NCBI GenBank assembly: GCA_020201095.1
Contig: JAIVHM010000156.1
Location: 1-41,178 of the forward strand
Length of the DNA stretch: 41,178 nucleotides
Reading direction: 5' to 3'
Source of the DNA: Halomonas sp.
Lineage (GTDB): Bacteria > Pseudomonadota > Gammaproteobacteria > Pseudomonadales > Halomonadaceae
The notes below the pieces were generated by a model. It was not told the DNA's origin and searched no databases. It saw nothing but the letters and a program-made list of their open reading frames with translations. Positions 12,760 to 40,015 of this stretch are shown here, piece after piece. The position numbers and the translations under genes are program-made. Position 1 is the stretch's first letter, and each line of letters starts with the position of its first letter.

Positions 12760-14841
12760 TCAGCGACCCCCTACCACAGTGGTTACCCGCAGCGTACGGT
12801 CATCGGGTATCTCAGCCTGGGACAGGATCGCCATGTGGCGCAAGCGACGGCGCAAAAACCGCGACAATACCGCGCGCAGGGAATGCTGAACCACCAGTAC
12901 CGGCGGCTCACCGCTGCTTTCGTGGCGCTCGAGTGCCTGCTGGGCCTGCGTCATCAGCGTTTCGGCAAGCCCTGGTTCCATCGCCCCGTTGCCATTCATG
13001 GCCTGCACCAATACCTGCTCCAGCTGAGCATCCAGGCCCATCACGTTCAAGGTGTCCTGACCGGCAAACCACTGTTGGGTAATCGCACGGCCCAGCGCAA
13101 CACGCACCAGGGCAGTCAGCTCGTTGGCGTCCTGCTGCTGGCCTGCGAATTCTGCCAGGGTGTCGAGAATGGAGCGCATATCGCGTATCGACACGTCTTC
13201 ATCCAGCAAGTTTTGCAGAATACGCTGCAGCACCGTGAGCGAAATGGCCTTGGGTACAACTTCTTCTACCAGCGACTTCTGGTCGCTGCCCAGCTTATCG
13301 AGTAGTTTCTGGACTTCCTGCCGGCCGAGCATTTCTGGCGAATGACGATGCAGCAGGTGATTGAGGTGCGTGGCGATCACCGTACTGGCGTCGACGACCG
13401 TATAGCCGTAGACCTGGGCGTGCTCACGCTGGCTGGCTTCAATCCACACTGCTGGCAAGCCAAAGGCAGGGTCTTCGGTTTGCGTTCCTTGAAGCTCTCC
13501 CGACACCTGCCCTGGATTAATCGCCAGCCACTTGCCCGGGTATGCTTCGGCACGGCCAATTTCGGCGCCTTTCATCGACAGCACATAGGCATTGGGCGAC
13601 AACTCCAGGTTGTCGCGTATATGTACGACCGGGGGCAAGAAGCCAACTTCCTGAGCAAACTTTTTACGCACGCTTTTCACCCGCGCCAACAGTTCGCCTT
13701 TTTGTCGTGAATCAACCAGCGGAATCAGGCGATGCCCCACTTCCAGGCCGAGTGTGTCGACCAGCTGGACATCTTCCCAACTGGCCTCGGGCGCTTCCTG
13801 GGTCGGCGGCGGCGCGGCAGAAATTTCCCCCTTGACCAACGCCTGCTCCTGGCGGCGCATAATGAACCAGGCAAGCCCAGCGAGCAGCGCGGTAAACAGC
13901 AGGAACACCATGTTGGGCATACCGGGCACGATGCCTAGCAGACCCATGACCATCGCCGCCAGGATCATCACCTGCGGGTTGACGAACAGCTGGCTGATCA
14001 TCTGCTGGCCAACGTCCTGGTCGGTATTGACCCGCGACACCGTCACACCAGCGGCCGTCGAAATAACCAGAGCGGGGATTTGCGCTACCAGGCCATCGCC
14101 AATGGCCAGCAGCATATAACTACGACCGGCATCGCCGAAGCTCATATCGTGTTGCAGCATGCCAATCATCAGGCCGCCAATGATGTTGACGACCATGATC
14201 ACAAGGCCCGCCACGGCGTCGCCGCGGACAAACTTGCTGGCACCATCCATTGACCCGTAAAAGTCGGCTTCCTGAGCGATTTCCGCGCGCCGGTTCTTGG
14301 CGTCTTCTTCGCCGATCAGTCCCGCATTAAGGTCGGCGTCGATCGCCATCTGCTTGCCAGGCATGGCGTCCAGGGTAAAGCGAGCGCCCACTTCGGCGAT
14401 ACGCCCTGCCCCTTTGGTGATAACCATGAAGTTGATGATGACAAGGATCAGGAAGACCACCAGACCCACGGCGAAATTACCGCCAACCAGAAATGCCCCG
14501 AAGGCCTCGATCACCTTACCGGCAGAGGCGCCGCCCTGGTGGCCTTCCATCAGCACCACGCGGGTTGACGCCACGTTCAGCGAAAGCCGCAGCAGCGTAG
14601 TGAACAGCAGCACAGCAGGAAAGGCAGCAAAATCCAGCGGCTTTTGGGCGAACATGCTGACCATCAGCACCATGATGGCCAGGGCAATATTGAAGGTGAA
14701 CAGCAAATCCAGTGCAAACGGCGGCATGGGCACGATCATCATGCCCAGAATCATCAGGATCAGCAGTGGCCCGGCGAGCAATTGGACTTTTACGTCGCTC
14801 ACCCAGTCACGCCGACTCATTAGTTGGCTAAAGCCTTTCAT
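12760..14841 (-). CDS. flhA: FlhA, flagellar export gate protein
   Basis: Large inner-membrane protein of the flagellar type III export gate. At 693 aa it has the usual length (E. coli about 692). The N-terminal half carries about eight transmembrane helices and the conserved FHIPEP-type region (FLILVIINFMVITKGAGRIAEV, seen in two parts either side of the FMVITKG core; then ARFTLDAMPGKQMAIDADLNAG likewise). The C-terminal half is the cytoplasmic ring that docks FliH/FliI and chaperones. It overlaps the end of flhB by 4 bp (ATGA) and no deletion is visible. Confidence 0.97.
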   Translation of the reverse strand: MKGFSQLMSRRDWVSDVKVQLLAGPLLILMILGMMIVPMPPFALDLLFTFNIALAIMVLMVSMFAQKPLDFAAFPAVLLFTTLLRLSLNVASTRVVLMEGHQGGASAGKVIEAFGAFLVGGNFAVGLVVFLILVIINFMVITKGAGRIAEVGARFTLDAMPGKQMAIDADLNAGLIGEEDAKNRRAEIAQEADFYGSMDGASKFVRGDAVAGLVIMVVNIIGGLMIGMLQHDMSFGDAGRSYMLLAIGDGLVAQIPALVISTAAGVTVSRVNTDQDVGQQMISQLFVNPQVMILAAMVMGLLGIVPGMPNMVFLLFTALLAGLAWFIMRRQEQALVKGEISAAPPPTQEAPEASWEDVQLVDTLGLEVGHRLIPLVDSRQKGELLARVKSVRKKFAQEVGFLPPVVHIRDNLELSPNAYVLSMKGAEIGRAEAYPGKWLAINPGQVSGELQGTQTEDPAFGLPAVWIEASQREHAQVYGYTVVDASTVIATHLNHLLHRHSPEMLGRQEVQKLLDKLGSDQKSLVEEVVPKAISLTVLQRILQNLLDEDVSIRDMRSILDTLAEFAGQQQDANELTALVRVALGRAITQQWFAGQDTLNVMGLDAQLEQVLVQAMNGNGAMEPGLAETLMTQAQQALERHESSGEPPVLVVQHSLRAVLSRFLRRRLRHMAILSQAEIPDDRTLRVTTVVGGR

Positions 14842-16004
14842 GTTGGGGCCTCATCGCCACCGGCACCGCGCCCGGGGGTTTCCATTTCCGGGGGAACCGG
14901 CAGATTATCGGGGGTAGGCGGCACTTCGCCTCCTTGTTGCGCTATATTTTTCAAGCGATATGCCCAGGCCATGACTTCGGCCACGGCCGTATATAGATTT
15001 GCGGGTATTTCGGCGTCCAGATCGACGTGATGATACAGGGCACGCGCCAGTGGTGCCGCCTCTAATCGTGGCACTTTTGCCTCATTGGCGATTTCCCGGA
15101 TGCGCTCAGCCACCGCATCGGTACCTTTAGCCACCAAGCGTGGCGCACCCATCTGGCCTTCTTGATACGACAGCGCCACCGCATAGTGAGTCGGGTTGGT
15201 AATAATGACGTCTGCCTCAGGCACTTTGCTCATCATACGGCCCCGCGCCATGGCCTGCTGCTGCTGGCGAATACGCGCCTTGACCTGCGGGTCGCCTTCG
15301 GATTCCTTGTGTTCGCGTTTGACTTCTTCCTGGCTCATGCGCAGCTTCTTGGCATTGCTCCAAAGCTGAAAGGGTACATCAATCAAAATCACCACAATCA
15401 ACGCCAGAACCATCAGTCCTGCCGCCTGGGCGGCCATCGTCAAGGCACTGGCCAACGCCTGCTGAATGGGCTGATTCATCAGCGACATGAACTTGCCCAC
15501 ATTCAGGTATAAAAACACCCCTCCCACACCGCCGACCAGCACTGATTTGGCAATCGCCTTGGCCAGTTCGATCAGCGCCTGGGTTGAGAAGAGGCGCTTT
15601 ATACCCGCTATCGGATTCAGCTTGGACAGTTTGGGCTGCATCGACTTGCCTGAAATCAAAAATCCGCCCAGCAGCGCAGGCGCTACCAGCGCGATCACCG
15701 CCAGCAGTAAAAACAGCGGCATCATTGCAAACAATGTACGCCTGCCGAGGTCTATTGCATGGGTCACCATCGGCATACTTTCCATGGCATGGCGGCGCTC
15801 AAATAGAAACGCCTGCTCCATTACCATGCCAAGCTGATTGTAGAGCATCTGCCCCATGGTCCAGAGGCCAATCACGCCGCCCAACAGTACAAGGAAGGTG
15901 GTCAACTCCCGCGAACGGGGTACCTGCCCTTCTTCACGCGCCTTGTCCAGTCGTCGGGGCGTGGCCTCTTCGGTCTTTTCCTGGTCGCTGTCGTCTTCTG
16001 CCAT
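14838..16004 (-). CDS. flhB: FlhB, export gate and substrate-specificity switch
   Basis: Membrane protein of the flagellar export gate that switches substrate class from rod/hook to filament. It is 388 aa. The N-terminal basic helix (EKTEEATPRRLDKAREEG) is typical. Four transmembrane segments follow, then the cytoplasmic domain with the self-cleaving N-P-T-H site (VIITNPTHYAVAL) and DLDAEIPANLY. The Pro-rich C-terminal tail ends at the overlap with flhA. A second, truncated copy of its cytoplasmic domain (fhlB) lies at 27859-28149. The terminator at 16043-16067 separates this gene from cheZ, so flhB probably starts its own transcript. Confidence 0.97.
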   Translation of the reverse strand: MAEDDSDQEKTEEATPRRLDKAREEGQVPRSRELTTFLVLLGGVIGLWTMGQMLYNQLGMVMEQAFLFERRHAMESMPMVTHAIDLGRRTLFAMMPLFLLLAVIALVAPALLGGFLISGKSMQPKLSKLNPIAGIKRLFSTQALIELAKAIAKSVLVGGVGGVFLYLNVGKFMSLMNQPIQQALASALTMAAQAAGLMVLALIVVILIDVPFQLWSNAKKLRMSQEEVKREHKESEGDPQVKARIRQQQQAMARGRMMSKVPEADVIITNPTHYAVALSYQEGQMGAPRLVAKGTDAVAERIREIANEAKVPRLEAAPLARALYHHVDLDAEIPANLYTAVAEVMAWAYRLKNIAQQGGEVPPTPDNLPVPPEMETPGRGAGGDEAPT

Positions 16005-26880: not shown

Positions 26881-27423
26881 TCATATGTTGCTTGATGCCG
26901 ATTTACACATCTGGCGCGTTTTGCCAGCCCGGGATGGCGGCTGGCAAATGCCGCATACATAATCGTGCATCGGGTTGTGAGCGTGCGCGACGAAGTGACC
27001 GCCGCAGCGGGTACATGGCGTCAGTTGTAGCAAATCGCTCTCAAAGAAACGCACCAGCGTCCAAGCGCGAGTGAGCCCTAATACGGGCTCTACACCCTCG
27101 ACATCAATCTGCTCGCCATACAGACGATAGGCCTTCACAAAGGCATCAATGCGCTCACAGTCAGTCTCTTGCACCAAGCTGGTATAAATGTTGTAAAACA
27201 AGGAAGAGTGAATGTTCGGCAGCCAGGTGATAAACCAGTCGGTCGAAAACGGCAGCATACCTTTCGGTGGCGACATTCCTCTTACTTCTTTGTACAGCTT
27301 GATGAGACGGGTGCGGCTAAGCTCTGTCTCCGTCTCCAATACCTGTAACCTTGCCCCAAGTTCAATCAGCTCAATAGCGAGCTGCACCTGGTGCATTTCG
27401 TCTACCAAGCTTTTTTGACTCAC
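26881..27423 (-). CDS. flhC: FlhC, master flagellar regulator subunit
   Basis: With FlhD forms the FlhD4C2 activator of class II flagellar operons. It is 180 aa. The zinc-binding cysteines CTRC and CGIC near residues 140-162 are present, as are LTRAWTLVRFFES and PPKGMLPFSTDWF. The GTG start overlaps the flhD stop (GTGA), with GGAGG 7 bp upstream. No deletion is visible. Confidence 0.96.
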   Translation of the reverse strand: MSQKSLVDEMHQVQLAIELIELGARLQVLETETELSRTRLIKLYKEVRGMSPPKGMLPFSTDWFITWLPNIHSSLFYNIYTSLVQETDCERIDAFVKAYRLYGEQIDVEGVEPVLGLTRAWTLVRFFESDLLQLTPCTRCGGHFVAHAHNPMHDYVCGICQPPSRAGKTRQMCKSASSNI

Positions 27424-27752
27424 GTGCTTTCCTCCGCCGGCAACGATTCATACTCCTCACCTGCCAGCAACAGCGACGCGTGCAAACTCGCGAGGCCTTG
27501 GTCACGCGGGTTTTCGGTCACTTGCTGCAATCGCTCAACGCTTGCCTGACCGAACCGACAAATCAACTGATTGGTTCTCGACAGCTTCGTCAGCTGCCGG
27601 GCGTTGAGCGATACAATAAGGTCTGCCACTTCGCCGTCGACTTTCAGACGGAACATGGCGGCCTCACGGTCTTCACTTAACAAGCGCTGCGCAAGTAGCA
27701 AGTACGCTAAGTTGATTTCCTGTATTTCATCTAGAAAGCTGGTTTGACTCAT
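27420..27752 (-). CDS. flhD: FlhD, master flagellar regulator subunit
   Basis: DNA-binding partner of FlhC. I start it at ATG 27752 (MSQTSFLDEIQEINLAYLLLAQRLL, read in two parts around the EINLAYL core), giving 110 aa, the usual length. About 40 further in-frame codons upstream have no family similarity and include an unlikely basic, Trp-rich stretch. The FlhD signatures EINLAYL and LNARQLTKLSRTNQLICRF are present. The gap of 106 bp to fhlB must contain the class I promoter; I could not pick its hexamers with confidence. Confidence 0.93.
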   Translation of the reverse strand: MSQTSFLDEIQEINLAYLLLAQRLLSEDREAAMFRLKVDGEVADLIVSLNARQLTKLSRTNQLICRFGQASVERLQQVTENPRDQGLASLHASLLLAGEEYESLPAEEST

Positions 27753-27858
27753 AATGGCCCATCGAACGAAACTGACGCCTCTGTTGCTGTGGTAGCGGCG
27801 CCATGAGTGATTTTTATATTGACCCAAACACCATGGTTGCATACCGCGTTTATATTGG

Positions 27859-28149
27859 CTAATCAGCGCTCTCACGCTTAGCTAGCCCAGCTTCCGACAG
27901 TTCAAATACCCATACCAGCAGTTCAGCTATGACCTGATACAAATTGGCAGGAATTTCCGCATCCAAATCCAACTGCATTAACAGCGCGACAAGCTCAGGT
28001 GCGTCATGTACATAAATACCCTGCCGCTGTGCCTCGGCCATGATGCGCTCGGCCAGATCGCCATAGCCTTTAGCCACCACCCGTGGCGCCCGCTCATGGT
28101 CCTGGTAAGCCAGGGCCACGGCTTGGCGTCTTGATTCACCCGATGACAT
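27859..28149 (-). CDS. fhlB: FhlB, truncated FlhB cytoplasmic-domain paralogue
   Basis: Soluble 96-aa protein equivalent to the C-terminal piece of FlhB after its self-cleavage site. It matches FlhB in AVALAYQ, RVVAKGYGDLAERI and DLDAEIPANLYQVIAEL, but has no N-P-T-H motif or membrane helices. In other bacteria such proteins can influence the hook/filament export switch. Its ATG lies inside the end of the FliK-like gene (14-bp overlap), with GAGG upstream, so the two are co-translated. Confidence 0.9.
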   Translation of the reverse strand: MSSGESRRQAVALAYQDHERAPRVVAKGYGDLAERIMAEAQRQGIYVHDAPELVALLMQLDLDAEIPANLYQVIAELLVWVFELSEAGLAKRESAD

Positions 28150-29443
28150 CCGAGGCCTCTTCTACATAGCGAGCACGCACTTGTACTTTGCGCAGATCCA
28201 GCGCCTCCAGGCGCGACTCGAGCGCAGGTGCGCCCGCATCAAGACGCTGATGCACTTGCGCATCACTGGCGGTTAAATCAATGTTCAAAACACCTCGATA
28301 TAGCCGCAATGACACACTAAAGGCGCCAAAACCGGGCACATCAAGCTGCATGTCAGACTGCCAGCCATCATCAGCTGATTCCTGCTCATCACCGCCTTCC
28401 TGGTGCTGCCCACGCGCCGGCAGGTTAATCATCAACGCCATAAAAATGCCCGCCCATACGTCACCTTCCCAACGAATGGTAGGCATCACCAGCATTTCAA
28501 GCTGCTGACGCACCAAACTTTGCAGACTTTCATGCACCACTTCGCGTGATTGACGGTTGGGCATGATATCCAGCGCATCACGGGCCAGACGCGCATCAAC
28601 ATTTGTTTGCTGAGCTTCTTTAGTATTAGTGGTGAGCTCAGCCGAGTTAAACGCTCCCGGATTCGCCATAGGCGGCTGAGAGGAAGATGGTGCATTGACC
28701 ACTGGCGAACGCGCCGCCGCAGATTCACTGGCAGCAGGGATTAACGATGTATTAGGTAATATGGCTGCATTACTCGGCGACGCGACCAGCAGTGGCGAAC
28801 TGCCGCTGGGCACCATACCGGCTGCAGGTATTCCGCTCCCTCCACCTTGAGGCACCACTCCTGCTCCCAGCGCCGTCGACACCAAAGGCATGGGTACCGA
28901 AGCGCGGGGGCCCGGCTGCATTTGCGGTTCTCTCAATAGCTGCTGGCGGCTGGTCTCGCCTTGAAACCAACGTTTGAGGTGTGCCTCATAAAACAGACCG
29001 CTATCCCGCACGCTAGCTTCGAGCCGCGTTGCCAACTGTGCTGATGACGGCGGTTCAGACGCATTCATCAAAGGCGCTTCGGCACGCATGACGGTGGGGG
29101 GTGCGGGGAAGCGCAGCAATACATCTGCAATACTGCGCGCCGCTGGACTAAAGTGTGTCTGTGTTGAACCGGGCGGCAGCGCCTGGGCATCGCCTCGTTG
29201 AGGCTGTCGTCCGCCGTCCAACTGAGACGGCAGCCCTCTCATATCCCGCAGTGCCGTATCACGCAGCGCCGTGGAAGTGGGGTCACGTCCATCCAATCGC
29301 GCATCCCCCATCAGGGCGCGCGGACCCTCTCCCGGCACAATCGGCTTGATTGGCTGGTCCATTAAGCGCTGATTCGACACATCGCCTCGTCGGCCTAGTA
29401 CCTGATGAAGCAGGGTGTCGATCAGCGGATTAATGGTACTCAC
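28136..29443 (-). CDS. FliK-like protein paired with fhlB
   Basis: A 435-aa protein with a low-complexity N-terminal two-thirds (Pro, Ser, Ala, Asn, Gln) and a compact C-terminal domain (from about residue 300: VRQQLEMLVMPTIRWEGDVWAG, read as VRQQLEMLV and PTIRWEGDVW, then FGAFSVSLRLYRGVLNIDL) that resembles the FliK C-terminal domain. A conventional fliK is at 38636-40015, so this is a second copy. It sits between fliT (4-bp overlap) and fhlB (14-bp overlap), as in other proteobacteria where the pair is found together. The role in export switching is inferred. Confidence 0.75.
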   Translation of the reverse strand: MSTINPLIDTLLHQVLGRRGDVSNQRLMDQPIKPIVPGEGPRALMGDARLDGRDPTSTALRDTALRDMRGLPSQLDGGRQPQRGDAQALPPGSTQTHFSPAARSIADVLLRFPAPPTVMRAEAPLMNASEPPSSAQLATRLEASVRDSGLFYEAHLKRWFQGETSRQQLLREPQMQPGPRASVPMPLVSTALGAGVVPQGGGSGIPAAGMVPSGSSPLLVASPSNAAILPNTSLIPAASESAAARSPVVNAPSSSQPPMANPGAFNSAELTTNTKEAQQTNVDARLARDALDIMPNRQSREVVHESLQSLVRQQLEMLVMPTIRWEGDVWAGIFMALMINLPARGQHQEGGDEQESADDGWQSDMQLDVPGFGAFSVSLRLYRGVLNIDLTASDAQVHQRLDAGAPALESRLEALDLRKVQVRARYVEEASDVIG

Positions 29444-29847
29444 GACGACCTCGGTGACTGATCATCTTCGCCTACCGGCACATTGCCTCTTGCCTGCTGA
29501 GGCGCATAGGCACGGTGTAAGCTTCGCTGACGTTGAGACACATTGATCAGCCGCCCCAACTCATCACGGCGGGCAATCAGCTGGCGACGAATCTCCACGT
29601 CATGCTCCAGAGTCGCTTCCAGCAGTTCCGTCTTTCGCTGCTGCGCAGAAGGCTCAAGCGTCACCGACGTTTCCAGCTCGCGCAACTTCTCCACCAGCAA
29701 AACGTAATGGGTGCGCTGATCGATCAGCTCTGCCCACTGGTCATTATCAGCCAGCTCGTGCATATATATAACGCTATCAAGAAGCGCCGCATAGGTATCA
29801 ATGAGCGTCTGTTGCGCGTCATTTCGCGTCGTCGTGGAAGCCACCAT
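29440..29847 (-). CDS. fliT: FliT, flagellar export chaperone
   Basis: Small helical chaperone, in enterobacteria for FliD, and a regulator of FlhDC. I start it at ATG 29847 (MVASTTTRNDAQQ), 7 bp after the fliS stop and with GAGG upstream, giving 135 aa. The 32 in-frame codons upstream overlap fliS and are not expected to be translated. The helix pattern TYAALLDSVIYMHELADNDQWAELI (seen as ALLDSVIYMHELA and QWAELIDQRTHYV) fits FliT. The assignment also rests on position after fliS. Confidence 0.82.
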   Translation of the reverse strand: MVASTTTRNDAQQTLIDTYAALLDSVIYMHELADNDQWAELIDQRTHYVLLVEKLRELETSVTLEPSAQQRKTELLEATLEHDVEIRRQLIARRDELGRLINVSQRQRSLHRAYAPQQARGNVPVGEDDQSPRSS

Positions 29848-29854
29848 TAGTGCC

Positions 29855-30271
29855 TCATGCCGATTGCTGTTGGCCAATTTCGCGCCATGCAGAAGCAATG
29901 TCCTCAAGAAGTCGCTCGGCTTCGTCCAGGCTCGCCTCGTCATTGCGCAGATTGGCTTTCAACAACAGGCGTGCAATATAGCTGTATAAAGCGCTCAATT
30001 GCTCTGCAATATCGCCGCCTTTCTCACGGTCGAGTGCCGCCGCCAGACCATTGTTGACAATATCGAGCGCTTTCGAAATGGATCGACCCTTCTCAGCAAC
30101 ATTACCCGCCTGCATATGGATACGTGCTGCGCGAATAGCGGCTTGCGCGCCGTCGAATAGCATAACGATCAGCTGATGGGGATCAGCCGACATGACACCG
30201 CTTTCAACGCCAACCCTTGCATACGCATTAGCCCCTCGGCCATAAGCGGCTGCACCGCGCGAGTATGTCAT
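29855..30271 (-). CDS. fliS: FliS, flagellin export chaperone
   Basis: Binds flagellin to prevent early polymerisation. It is 138 aa with the family signature ADPHQLIVMLFDGAQAAIR and LDIVNNGLAAALDREKGG. A near-consensus sigma-28 promoter lies at 30362-30388. fliC and fliD, which usually precede fliS, are not in the window; a PilZ-HD-GYP gene is upstream instead. Confidence 0.95.
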   Translation of the reverse strand: MTYSRGAAAYGRGANAYARVGVESGVMSADPHQLIVMLFDGAQAAIRAARIHMQAGNVAEKGRSISKALDIVNNGLAAALDREKGGDIAEQLSALYSYIARLLLKANLRNDEASLDEAERLLEDIASAWREIGQQQSA

Positions 30272-30361: not shown

Positions 30362-30388
30362 TTATCGGCGAGTGCTAAAGCGACTTTA
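30362..30388 (-). promoter_or_regulatory. Sigma-28 promoter for fliS operon
   Basis: On the minus strand TAAAGTCG (30388-30381), an 11-bp spacer, then GCCGATAA (30369-30362). The -10 is a perfect match and the -35 matches 6 of 8 positions. It lies about 90 bp upstream of fliS and implies FliA control of fliS-fliT-FliK-like-fhlB. Confidence 0.85.
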
Positions 30389-30444: not shown

Positions 30445-32136
30445 TTACGTCGATACCGCGACCTCGCTCACTGGACGCCCCAGCTTTTCGACAACGTTAC
30501 CGCTGATTATCTTACCCATATTATCGCGCATCGGCGGACTTGCTGACGCCGTCAGCTGTACCTCTGTGGGATTGCCTTGCTCATCAATACGCAACACCCA
30601 GGCCAACTGTTCACTGGAAAAGCGCACCAAGGCACCAACCGGCAAGGCCTTGAAATGCCCTACATATCGCTTGATCCAGTGCTGGTCAAACTGGTGGGAA
30701 TGGGTCAGCAGATGGCGGTAAATTTGCTGTGTGGTTTTTGCGGGACGATCGCTTCGATCACGTCGCTGAGCTTCCATGACATCAACAATGGCGCTGGCCT
30801 TGGCGAGCTCGTTTAACGACGCTCCCGTCACACCCTCAGGATAGCCACTACCGTCCATTCGCTCGTTAATACCGCCGATGACGGCAGACGCTATGTTTGA
30901 AGATAACCACTGGCAACTATCCAATCGCTCAAGCACAAGCGGCACATGTTCGCTCAAGGCCTCGCGGTGCGTCGCCTCAAAGTGATCGGCTTTGAACAGC
31001 ACCTGCGGCACCAACGCCTTGCCAAGGTCGTGGACCAGACCACTGGCAACCACTGCTTTGCGCGCATCGCGGGGCATACCTGCGCCTACTAAATCCAACA
31101 AATGAACCGCCACCGCAATACCATGGCGAACCAGCAGCGGTTCGGGCGACAGGCACCGACAAGCGAAAAGCAGCGCTTCACGATCCTCTTCATGCAGATC
31201 CATTAGCCGGTCGGCGTACAAGGAAAGCTGGCGTGAATCGATATCACTGCCCTGTTGAAGCGCCAGCATTTGCCCATCCAGAAACGCGGCAATCTTGACC
31301 AGTCGGCGAGCCATAGGCGTGGCATAGCGCTTTACGTCGCGCCGACCAACATGCTCACCGGCACCCGTTCGACCAGCGGGCGAGGCAAACAAAGGTGATG
31401 GCTGACGCCCCTCCTGATTTTCTTTGGAATATCGGGCCGACTCCCGCTCAATCTCGCATACGAAGTACCAAACTTGGCGCTCCTGGTCGGCACTGCAGGA
31501 ACTGAAATAAAACCCGACGCGCAGTAAATTCCGCTCCGAGTCAGGTCGTTGATGGCGAGCCAAGGCCTGAATTTCAAAGTGCGTGCCATCGGGAAACTCA
31601 AAGGCAATATCCAATGGCCCCTCAGCGGTCGTCAGCATGCCGCTTGCCGTCATTGGCAGCTCCAACTGACAACCCCGCTGGGATAAGTCGCGCAGCTCGC
31701 CGTGGATCGCCTCCTGACCTGGCACGCTGACCTTGCCAGCTACCGGCATACCAATGCGGAGCTCGGCACGAAAAGCCTCACGCCGCTGAAGTACCTCCAG
31801 ATACGCCGGATAGTCACTGCAACATAAAAAACGCCCGCCGGCGCGACGAGTTTCAGTTAACGACAGCAATGGCGTGCGCAGCATCTTTCCTTGCGCTTCA
31901 CCCACCAGGTAAAAGGCCGCCCCCTTTTGAAGACGGCCAAGCAGATGGTCTACCGACGAAAGATCCAATACCAGCGTCTCGCCCGAATGCTGCTCCATTA
32001 GCACGACCGGCTCCGGCCGGCCGCTATCATCTTCCAAACAAAGCGACGCACCCCCGCTTTCCACCAATGTATCCAATAGCGACGCCACCGTTACCGGGTT
32101 TGCGACTCGCTCATATTCTTCCTCAAGGGCCACCAT
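30445..32136 (-). CDS. YcgR-like flagellar brake domain fused to PilZ and HD-GYP domains
   Basis: A 563-aa protein. Residues about 12-110 resemble the YcgR N-terminal domain. A PilZ c-di-GMP-binding domain follows, with R119-x3-R123 (RREAFR) and D150-x-S152-x2-G155 (DLSQRG) both intact. A linker leads to an HD-GYP domain (about 270-500) with H369-D370 (GLVHDLGK), H397 and G431-Y432-P433. In the usual H-H-E-x-x-D-G-x-G-Y-P motif the two His are I423 and N424 (INERMDGSGYP), so two metal ligands are missing and phosphodiesterase activity is doubtful. GAGG before the ATG gives a strong site. Position beside fliS suggests c-di-GMP control of motility. Confidence 0.85.
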   Translation of the reverse strand: MVALEEEYERVANPVTVASLLDTLVESGGASLCLEDDSGRPEPVVLMEQHSGETLVLDLSSVDHLLGRLQKGAAFYLVGEAQGKMLRTPLLSLTETRRAGGRFLCCSDYPAYLEVLQRREAFRAELRIGMPVAGKVSVPGQEAIHGELRDLSQRGCQLELPMTASGMLTTAEGPLDIAFEFPDGTHFEIQALARHQRPDSERNLLRVGFYFSSCSADQERQVWYFVCEIERESARYSKENQEGRQPSPLFASPAGRTGAGEHVGRRDVKRYATPMARRLVKIAAFLDGQMLALQQGSDIDSRQLSLYADRLMDLHEEDREALLFACRCLSPEPLLVRHGIAVAVHLLDLVGAGMPRDARKAVVASGLVHDLGKALVPQVLFKADHFEATHREALSEHVPLVLERLDSCQWLSSNIASAVIGGINERMDGSGYPEGVTGASLNELAKASAIVDVMEAQRRDRSDRPAKTTQQIYRHLLTHSHQFDQHWIKRYVGHFKALPVGALVRFSSEQLAWVLRIDEQGNPTEVQLTASASPPMRDNMGKIISGNVVEKLGRPVSEVAVST

Positions 32137-32461
32137 GTTCTCCTCACCTCTCCCATTGCCTCAGCGGATTATGCGCAAAGCGCTACACAATACCAGAAGC
32201 TGACGACAACCAGGATGCGCCACTCACACTCGATGCAAGGTTTCACTCAGCGACTATGCTGAGCGGGGTGGCAAAATTAACTTACTTACCTGCACGACTT
32301 CACTGTCGCTAAAGTTACCTTTAGCCAAGCCGATAAATTTTGCGTAAGTATCAGAAGCTAAATGCTTAAAAAAGCCGCTCCAATGAAACTTCGAGCCAGT
32401 ATTGATCATTAGCTAGTGCTGGCAAACCAGGGGTGGATACTCAAACAGGGGAACACAAACG
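32137..32461. other. Intergenic region between the PilZ-HD-GYP gene and flaG
   Basis: These 325 bp separate divergent genes. Apart from the sigma-28 promoter at 32310-32336 and the flaG ribosome binding site (AGGGGA, about 9 bp before ATG), I see no gene, repeat or RNA. The promoter for the PilZ-HD-GYP gene must be in the left half but was not identified. Confidence 0.6.
32310..32336 (+). promoter_or_regulatory. Sigma-28 promoter for flaG
   Basis: TAAAGTTA (32310-32317), an exact 11-bp spacer and GCCGATAA (32329-32336). This matches 15 of 16 positions of the FliA consensus TAAAGTTT-N11-GCCGATAA. It lies about 125 bp upstream of the flaG start. Confidence 0.92.
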
Positions 32462-38167: not shown

Positions 38168-38616
38168 GCCGAACGCAATTGGAGATGCTTGCCGACTTAG
38201 CCCGCGAGGCCCGCGACCAAGCGGGCATCGTCCTGGCTCAGGAGCGGCAAGGTGAACAACAGACGACCGCACAACTGCAATCGCTCAAGCGTTACCGTGC
38301 AGAGTACGCAGAGCGTTTACAGCTGGCGATGCGCGACGGCATTGACCCGGCCACGATGTACAACTATCAGCAATTTCTCGGCTCGCTGGATGCTGCGTTG
38401 GAACGCGCCCGCCACACCCTGGCGGCACAGCAAAAGCGGGTGGAAAAACGCCAACAACATTGGCAACAGGAGCAGCGTAAACTGTCTTCCTACGATACAC
38501 TGACCTCACGACGGCTAGTTGAAGAACATCGACGCCTTGAGCGTTATGAACAGAAAACCAATGACGATTTGGTGACTAGCCGCTTGGCTCGCCAACGTAA
38601 TGAGACGCCGCAGTAG
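38164..38616 (+). CDS. fliJ: FliJ, export chaperone-escort protein
   Basis: A 150-aa coiled-coil protein that works with FliI and FlhA in export. ATG overlaps the fliI stop (ATGA). It is almost wholly helical, rich in Gln, Arg and Glu, with no globular domain, as in the family ([30 protein letters not shown]). Confidence 0.9.
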
Positions 38617-38635
38617 CGGTGCCAGGGAACTGAGT

Positions 38636-40015
38636 ATGAATATTCACCAGTTGCTATCAACGACGCAAGGTCAAGCGACTAGCAGTCAACAGGGCAGCAC
38701 CGCAACGGCTGACAGCGCGCGGGGATTCTTTCAGCAGGCGCTTTCCCAGGCCTCTGCTTCGCCTCACCAGCGCCTTGCCAATGCACAGGTTTCCGCGCCT
38801 TCAAACCAGGCAGGCAATAGCCCCATGGATACTGGCCAGCCGACGGAAGCCACATCCCTGACGGCGTGGCTGGAATCGCTTGGCTTGGATATCAGCCCCG
38901 AGGCCCTGGAAGCTTTGGTGGCACGCTTTGCCAACGACGGTGGCGAGTCAATGACTGAAGAAATGCCCCGTCTAGACGCTTCCGAGAGCCTTGATAGTGC
39001 CACGCTGGACGAAATTGCCCAACGCCTCGCGTTGATGGCTAATTTCAGTGATACCACAAGCGAGGCAGTAACGCTTCATGGCAATGAGGAAGCTGCGCCC
39101 ACCGCAGCTGAGCTTGCCGAACAGCTAGGCATTGAGGAAGGTGAAGCAGAGCAGTTGGTAAGTCTCCTAAGCGCTTTTGCCGCTTCACAGAGCCAGACGA
39201 CCAACACGGCTGATACCAAACAATCCGGGGCATCGCGAGGTCTGAGTGATATCGCGCAAGCACTCGGGGCTTCGTCTCAAACCGCTGAAACGAGTAAACC
39301 CTCGCGCGCAGAGAGCCTGTTAAGCCAGGTCGACGCACGGTCAACCTCTCGTCAGGGCCCTGATACCTGGGTTAATACGCTCGATACATCAGGACGCACG
39401 GCTGACGGATCTGCCAAAGCTAATCTGGTTCTGCCTACTTCATCCTCAGAAACACTATTGAACTCACTGTCGTCAAATAACGGCGGTCAGACCAACGGAC
39501 AGGCATCCGCACAAGCGGCTAGCGCTCAGCTAACGCCCACCACCAGCATGGGTAGCGCGGCCAATCCGACACCTGCTGCGGTCAACACCCCGGTAACCAG
39601 TCCCGCCTGGCCGCAACAATTAGGACAACAGCTCGTCCAGTTCGCCCAGCGAGGAGGTGACCAGCTTGTACAAATGCAACTGCATCCGGCTGAGTTGGGC
39701 GCACTTTCCATCTCCTTGAAGGTTGGCGAGCAAGGAGCCCAAGCACACTTCTTATCCAGCCACGCCCAGGTACGCCAGATCATTGAACAGGCCATCCCCC
39801 AGTTACGCGAGGCGCTCGCGGAGCAAGGTATTTCACTTGGCGAGACATCGGTTGGCGAGCAGCGCGAATCTAGCGAGCAGGGCTTTGCACAACAGCAGAC
39901 AGGCCCAGGTGGTCAGCCCGGCGTTGAAGGTGGCGAAGAAGGTAGCGGCAGTTTAGCGCCGACGATCCAGAATACACCTATCACACTGGATGGCAGGGTT
40001 GATCTGTACGCTTAA
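38636..40015 (+). CDS. fliK: FliK, hook-length control protein
   Basis: Measures hook length and triggers the FlhB switch. I start at ATG 38636 (MNIHQLLS), with AGGGAA upstream; the frame is open to 38600 but that part overlaps fliJ. The 459-aa product has a long low-complexity Ser/Thr/Gln/Ala N-terminal ruler region and a conserved C-terminal domain (LVQMQLHPAELGALSISLKV, read as MQLHPAELG and LSISLKV). It is complete. A second FliK-like gene is at 28136-29443. Confidence 0.93.
   Translation: MNIHQLLSTTQGQATSSQQGSTATADSARGFFQQALSQASASPHQRLANAQVSAPSNQAGNSPMDTGQPTEATSLTAWLESLGLDISPEALEALVARFANDGGESMTEEMPRLDASESLDSATLDEIAQRLALMANFSDTTSEAVTLHGNEEAAPTAAELAEQLGIEEGEAEQLVSLLSAFAASQSQTTNTADTKQSGASRGLSDIAQALGASSQTAETSKPSRAESLLSQVDARSTSRQGPDTWVNTLDTSGRTADGSAKANLVLPTSSSETLLNSLSSNNGGQTNGQASAQAASAQLTPTTSMGSAANPTPAAVNTPVTSPAWPQQLGQQLVQFAQRGGDQLVQMQLHPAELGALSISLKVGEQGAQAHFLSSHAQVRQIIEQAIPQLREALAEQGISLGETSVGEQRESSEQGFAQQQTGPGGQPGVEGGEEGSGSLAPTIQNTPITLDGRVDLYA

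Follow-up and report, generated by a model that had tools for sequence, protein, structure and literature searches.

A YcgR-type PilZ protein joined to a degenerate HD-GYP domain in a flagellar locus of Halomonas

Domain organisation and gene neighbourhood

The window analysed here, a stretch of 41,178 nucleotides from a Halomonas sp. contig, carries at 30445-32136 on the minus strand a gene whose open reading frame specifies a protein of 563 amino acids, in which a YcgR/FlgZ-type half stands before a degenerate HD-GYP domain (all coordinates within this gene are on the minus strand). The protein begins with an N-terminal, PilZN-like domain of YcgR/FlgZ type (residues 12-116; 31789-32103), recognised through a phmmer alignment to PP4397 and through Foldseek, which leads into a PilZ domain (residues 117-222; 31471-31788; PF07238, E 2.7e-9, above the gathering score). 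This arrangement, together with the type-I motifs RxxxR and (D/N)xSxxG, is characteristic of the YcgR/FlgZ family, and both c-di-GMP motifs are present as R119-x3-R123 (R119-E-A-F-R123; 31768-31782) and D150-x-S152-x2-G155 (D150-L-S-Q-R-G155; 31672-31689), in keeping with the intact site that an earlier note on this DNA had ascribed to the PilZ part. The best phmmer match of the first half is FlgZ (PP4397) of Pseudomonas putida, with which it aligns over residues 12-240; FlgZ and YcgR of E. coli likewise combine PilZN-like and PilZ domains with RxxxR and DxSxxG, but are only about 245 amino acids long and have no HD-GYP domain. In paralogues the Pfam PilZN model comes just under its cut-off. 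With a score of 25 under the NCBIfam YcgR equivalog model, whose cut-off is 400, the fusion protein is not a YcgR at equivalog level.

Past a linker of low confidence (residues 238-272; 31321-31425), where pLDDT falls to about 50-70, lies the HD-GYP domain with its leading helices (residues 274-495; 30652-31317; PF13487, domain model and Foldseek), and the secondary structure of the model shows a small beta-rich domain at the C-terminus (residues 502-560; 30457-30633). The HD-GYP-type model HD_5 (PF13487) matches residues 353-485 (E 3.7e-11, above the gathering score), the HDxGK motif of the family is present (H369-D-L-G-K373), the fold is that of HD-GYP proteins, and in sequence comparison the second half aligns with the HD-GYP structures PmGH, DvhD, V-cGAP3 and PA4781. 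The domain search that the earlier note had proposed identifies the C-terminal half, by Pfam and Foldseek, as HD-GYP and not HDOD; Pfam gave no HDOD match in the 563-residue protein, and with the fold it also rules out a generic HD domain.

An AlphaFold model of the full-length protein, built with 62 homologues, has a mean pLDDT of 86.9, and the C-terminal 292 residues modelled alone reach a pLDDT of 95.2 and a pTM of 0.93. Foldseek matches of the first half include PP4397, YcgR and VCA0042, several of the structures being c-di-GMP-bound, as well as the PilZ transcription regulator MrkH, while the isolated second half returns DvhD at the top, followed by PA4781, PmGH and Bd1817. For these HD-GYP matches the TM-scores are moderate (0.39-0.68 by target length) and the rmsd is 5-7 in most cases, so that the HD-GYP fold is secure and its fine geometry is not. 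The lowest rmsd (3.7-3.9) belongs to Bd1817 of Bdellovibrio (PDB 3TM8), an HD-GYP fold of inactive type which, unlike the fusion protein, has no PilZ half and which keeps a binuclear iron; it has been cited as an inactive HD-GYP protein (PMC4159591).

The flagellar setting described in the earlier note is confirmed by Pfam, which gives the gene order motA-flhC-flhD-flhB-like-fliK-like-fliT-fliS, next to it the minus-strand fusion gene, and beyond that flaG, fliE, fliF and fliG. The neighbours from flhC to fliS lie at 26881-30271 on the minus strand, and in Vreelandella and Halomonas genomes the motA-to-fliS set accompanies the gene in all 49 genus-level loci and the flaG-to-fliG set in 48. Three other genera and a second family show the same arrangement on the fliS side. 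Several other genera have the orthologue outside flagellar loci, beside genes of topoisomerase IV/gyrase A, serB and leuA type, where no fixed partner gene was seen next to it; paralogues, too, lie outside flagellar clusters in many genera, some with an EAL or GGDEF gene as neighbour. An exact FliA-type box (TAAA-N15-GCCGATAA) precedes fliS (30362-30388, minus strand) and is found with at most two mismatches in 49/49 loci, and another exact box precedes flaG, divergent from the fusion gene (32310-32336, plus strand; 47/49 loci). No conserved FliA box stands before the fusion gene in the 49 genus-level loci, and a FliA promoter for it is ruled out, the box being conserved on the divergent strand only; flgZ, by comparison, is FliA-dependent and forms part of the flgMN operon (PMC6093933).

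Between the fliK-like gene and flhD lies a gene (27859-28149, minus strand) whose product of 96 amino acids matches only the C-terminal end of FlhB, and a full-length flhB is also found in the window (14838-16004, minus strand). Two genes encode the FliK-type hook-length domain Flg_hook, one at 28136-29443 on the minus strand and the other at 38600-40015 on the plus strand.

The HD-GYP metal site and its conservation

The feature of active HD-GYP phosphodiesterases, HHExxDGxGYP with both histidines, is absent from the fusion protein, in which the motif reads I423-N424-ERMDGSGYP433 (30838-30870), with I-N for H-H as the earlier note had it. PmGH of Persephonella marina (PDB 4MCW, 4MDZ) shares the HD-GYP fold and is an active trinuclear enzyme (PMC4159591). 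In the alignment five of its eight metal ligands are kept, namely H189 as H338 (31123-31125), the HD pair H221-D222 as H369-D370 (31027-31032), H250 as H397 (30946-30948) and D305 as D452 (30781-30783), as is K225 (K373), and three are lost, E185, H276 and H277 being replaced by L334, I423 and N424. As read from the sequence, the metal site is incomplete, thinned but not erased: its total loss is ruled out by the five persisting ligands, and with the HD pair among them a metal could still bind. In PmGH, activity is all but eliminated by H276A and likewise by H277A (PMC4159591).

Some of the residues that hold the nucleotide are kept. The guanine base is gripped in PmGH by R314 and K317 (PMC4159591) and in DvhD of Desulfovibrio vulgaris by the equivalent residues R650 and R653 (PMC13090378); their counterparts in the fusion protein, R461 and R464 (30745-30756), are both present, the second as arginine for lysine, and the GYP tyrosine, Y432, likewise corresponds to a c-di-GMP contact known from these structures. 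From DvhD, R650, R653 and Y621 are carried over as R461, R464 and Y432, and K582 is matched by the similar R391, whereas Y652, Y523 and E668 have become D463, L334 and H479; the position of M646 is methionine in most homologues and Q457 in the Halomonas sp. copy. With the DvhD contacts carried over only in part, binding of c-di-GMP by the HD-GYP half itself is plausible, although we would put its chances a little short of even.

The altered motif is a settled feature of the family. In 118 aligned homologues, from Vreelandella and Halomonas and from other genera of the same family, histidine occurs at neither position 423 nor position 424: the first is I, A, V, T or C, and the second is asparagine in 117 and serine in one. 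Invariant in all 118 are R123, G155, H338, H369, K373, E425, D428 and Y432; R119, D/N150 and S152 are each found in 117, as are H397 and R461, with D370 in 112, R464 in 111 and D452 in 109. The homologues fall into four rough groups, A (close orthologues, including the Halomonas sp. copy), B, C and D, and D452 is absent from the paralogues of group D and from two close relatives. It is mostly in group D, too, that the HD pair is altered: its members have either largely lost that pair (HT or HS) or lost D452, and have kept NER-LDGSGYP, which suggests that the loop is retained for a non-catalytic role. When the window gene is compared with four near relatives, dN/dS lies between 0.05 and 0.09 for the whole gene and between 0.03 and 0.10 for its HD-GYP part, which is under purifying selection. 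Because no homologue has either histidine and dN/dS is low, loss of the pair is not a local defect, and random decay or sequencing error is ruled out as its cause.

Distribution of the fusion

A survey in relatives, which the earlier note had also called for, finds a match to the fusion gene in 128 of 151 genomes of the family at E<=1e-10 (the weakest matches may span one half only), and a fusion unique to Halomonas sp. is ruled out by this number. By contrast with the fused domains, every one of the 42 stand-alone HD-GYP proteins whose motif was read, controls drawn from the same order, class and phylum, has HHE, and in a tree of 81 HD-GYP domains, whose root is arbitrary and whose alignment includes the columns of the H-H trait, a single branch with support 100/98 separates the 39 fused from the 42 stand-alone domains. 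None of 13 long frames from searches of the order and phylum joined a YcgR half to an HD-GYP domain of HH type, the frames with HHE having no YcgR half. In distant fusions from two other families of the order the sites are more eroded still (SHELLDGEGWP, SHERLDGSGLL, QNYERLDGSGIP).

Of 399 genomes from the phylum, 16 match the DNA pattern for NExxDGxGYP. Its matches outside the family are a second-family fusion, a group-D copy in an Enterobacteriaceae-like genome, one match outside any HD-GYP domain, one frame in which a stop interrupts the pattern, and short HD-GYP proteins of one distant genus. Group-D copies outside the family are represented by L178 (genome G586) and by Pantoea alhagi plasmid pPALTYR11Z (L215:3653-5371); one of the two sits on a mobilizable plasmid, with integrase genes and an EAL gene close by, and these copies are likely to reflect horizontal transfer. 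The short HD-GYP proteins of the distant genus (frames of 220-240 amino acids; L207-L210) read QNE(W/H/C)WDGxGYP without a YcgR half, from which it appears that asparagine at the second histidine position also arose independently elsewhere. In one fusion paralogue (L211; G015:C1:1911464-1913160) the frame breaks just past NERMDGSGYP, and this copy is frameshifted or a pseudogene.

In the genomes sampled, close homologues of the fusion and the plain YcgR-like protein do not overlap. Among 61 genomes of the family a stand-alone YcgR-like PilZ protein of 250-290 amino acids occurs in 10 and a close homologue of the fusion (best E below 1e-60) in 39, with no genome having both (Fisher p 7e-6, kinship ignored). 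FliM is absent from 14 of the 151 family genomes, and 13 of these also have no fusion (p 7e-12, kinship again ignored). Nine of the ten genomes that have the stand-alone protein encode FliM but not FlhC, and FlhC is present in most genomes that carry the fusion; which brake a genome has may depend on which type of flagellar master regulator it uses.

Candidate functions of the fusion protein

We consider it probable that the protein is a flagellar YcgR-type receptor whose HD-GYP half does not hydrolyse. In such a protein, as in YcgR and FlgZ, c-di-GMP would bind the PilZ site and expose a surface that acts on the stator or the motor. The HD-GYP half, no longer cutting c-di-GMP, would probably still bind it where the substrate once sat, by means of R461, R464 and Y432, and so change the packing of the domains or the oligomeric state, in which case the brake would read its signal twice. 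From the inactivity of the PmGH mutants, and with H-H missing in 118/118 homologues, hydrolysis is predicted to be absent. The receptor reading is also supported by DvhD, the top fold match, in which HD has become SQ and HH has become MN and which is a metal-free c-di-GMP receptor without hydrolysis (PMC13090378; PDB 9RBZ, 9RC0). It resembles the fusion protein in having x-N for H-H and the equivalents of R461, R464 and Y432, but it is a membrane protein of dCache-PAS-HD-GYP architecture that controls an adhesin protease (PMC13090378). Moreover, DvhD has also lost the HD pair that the fusion protein keeps next to its YcgR-type PilZ partner, and is to that extent an imperfect precedent; the partly shared DvhD contacts and the five remaining metal ligands count against the receptor reading. 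We infer the braking action from homology with YcgR and FlgZ and from gene context and co-occurrence, the same grounds that support the brake label in the earlier note: the synteny at 49/49 loci, the lack of overlap with stand-alone YcgR and the loss together with FliM speak for it, and the orthologues that lie outside flagellar loci in many genera of the family and the want of a conserved FliA box before the gene speak against it.

The main rival to this receptor is a docking platform, in which the HD-GYP half would bind no nucleotide and would instead hold other proteins, for example a GGDEF protein at the GYP loop, providing c-di-GMP locally to PilZ. E425, D428 and G431-Y432-P433 are invariant even without the metal ligands, and in Xanthomonas campestris RpfG uses its GYP motif to bind GGDEF proteins, which in turn bring a PilZ protein to the motor of the pilus, whether or not RpfG is enzymatically active (PMC3749722). 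There, too, HD-GYP and PilZ act jointly on a motility machine, but as separate proteins, with an active HD-GYP domain and on a type IV pilus instead of a flagellum (PMC3749722). We regard such docking as unlikely, given that R461 and R464, which correspond to the guanine-gripping residues of solved structures, have been retained too and that no constant partner gene accompanies the orthologues outside flagellar loci.

Less likely again are two further readings, which we hold equally improbable. The remaining ligands H338, H369-D370, H397 and D452 might hold one metal and allow slow cleavage of c-di-GMP, pGpG or another nucleotide; mononuclear HD enzymes exist, and the high conservation of these ligands and of K373 would fit. 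The weak degradation that the earlier note had offered as one option is nevertheless disfavoured by the near-dead H276A and H277A mutants of PmGH (PMC4159591) and by the failure of DvhD, with its x-N, to hydrolyse, by the further loss of the E185 equivalent, by the group-D copies, whose loop has stayed the same after loss of HD or D452, and by the fusions from other families in the order, whose sites are eroded further; the other option of that note, a PilZ part that senses and an HD-GYP domain that serves as a binding scaffold, is the one supported. Alternatively, the protein might be a c-di-GMP-responsive regulator of another output, such as gene expression or surface structures, that stands in the flagellar cluster of the genus by chance. 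In several genera the orthologues, and in many the paralogues, are placed away from such clusters, and MrkH is among the fold matches, but this reading sits poorly with the conserved flagellar synteny extending to a second family, with a fusion that is mostly absent when flagella are absent and that replaces stand-alone YcgR, and with FlgZ and YcgR as the best matches of the first half.

PilZ/HD-GYP combinations in general already figure in domain surveys, and it is well established that degenerate GGDEF and EAL domains serve as c-di-GMP receptors. For an HD-GYP pseudo-enzyme in that role DvhD (2026) is the clear published case found, and PilZ, YcgR, HD-GYP and the HD-GYP pseudo-enzyme receptor are each already known. 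A literature search turned up no case in which a YcgR half with a conserved non-HH HD-GYP domain serves a bacterial family as its flagellar YcgR-type protein, which is not proof of novelty, and no Halomonas paper on YcgR or on a PilZ/HD-GYP fusion was found in that search, which covered few subscription journals. More tentatively than the receptor itself, and at somewhat worse than even chances, we suggest a brake with two unlike c-di-GMP sites, the PilZ site and a retired phosphodiesterase as second receptor, cooperative or with a dual threshold; the fused pseudo-enzymes would form one clade in several families of the order that replaces plain YcgR/FlgZ in many Halomonadaceae. Such a clade would extend the principle of degenerate-domain receptors to flagellar braking, and the protein lets one ask how a single messenger is read at two unrelated sites of the same polypeptide.

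There is also a warning for annotation, in that fusion proteins of this kind get called phosphohydrolases. In the Halomonas sp. assembly, 90% complete in 284 contigs, HD-GYP is matched once and PilZ twice (the second time in a frame of 114 amino acids), and the 45 GGDEF matches indicate that c-di-GMP is made; the only HD-GYP protein found there probably degrades nothing.
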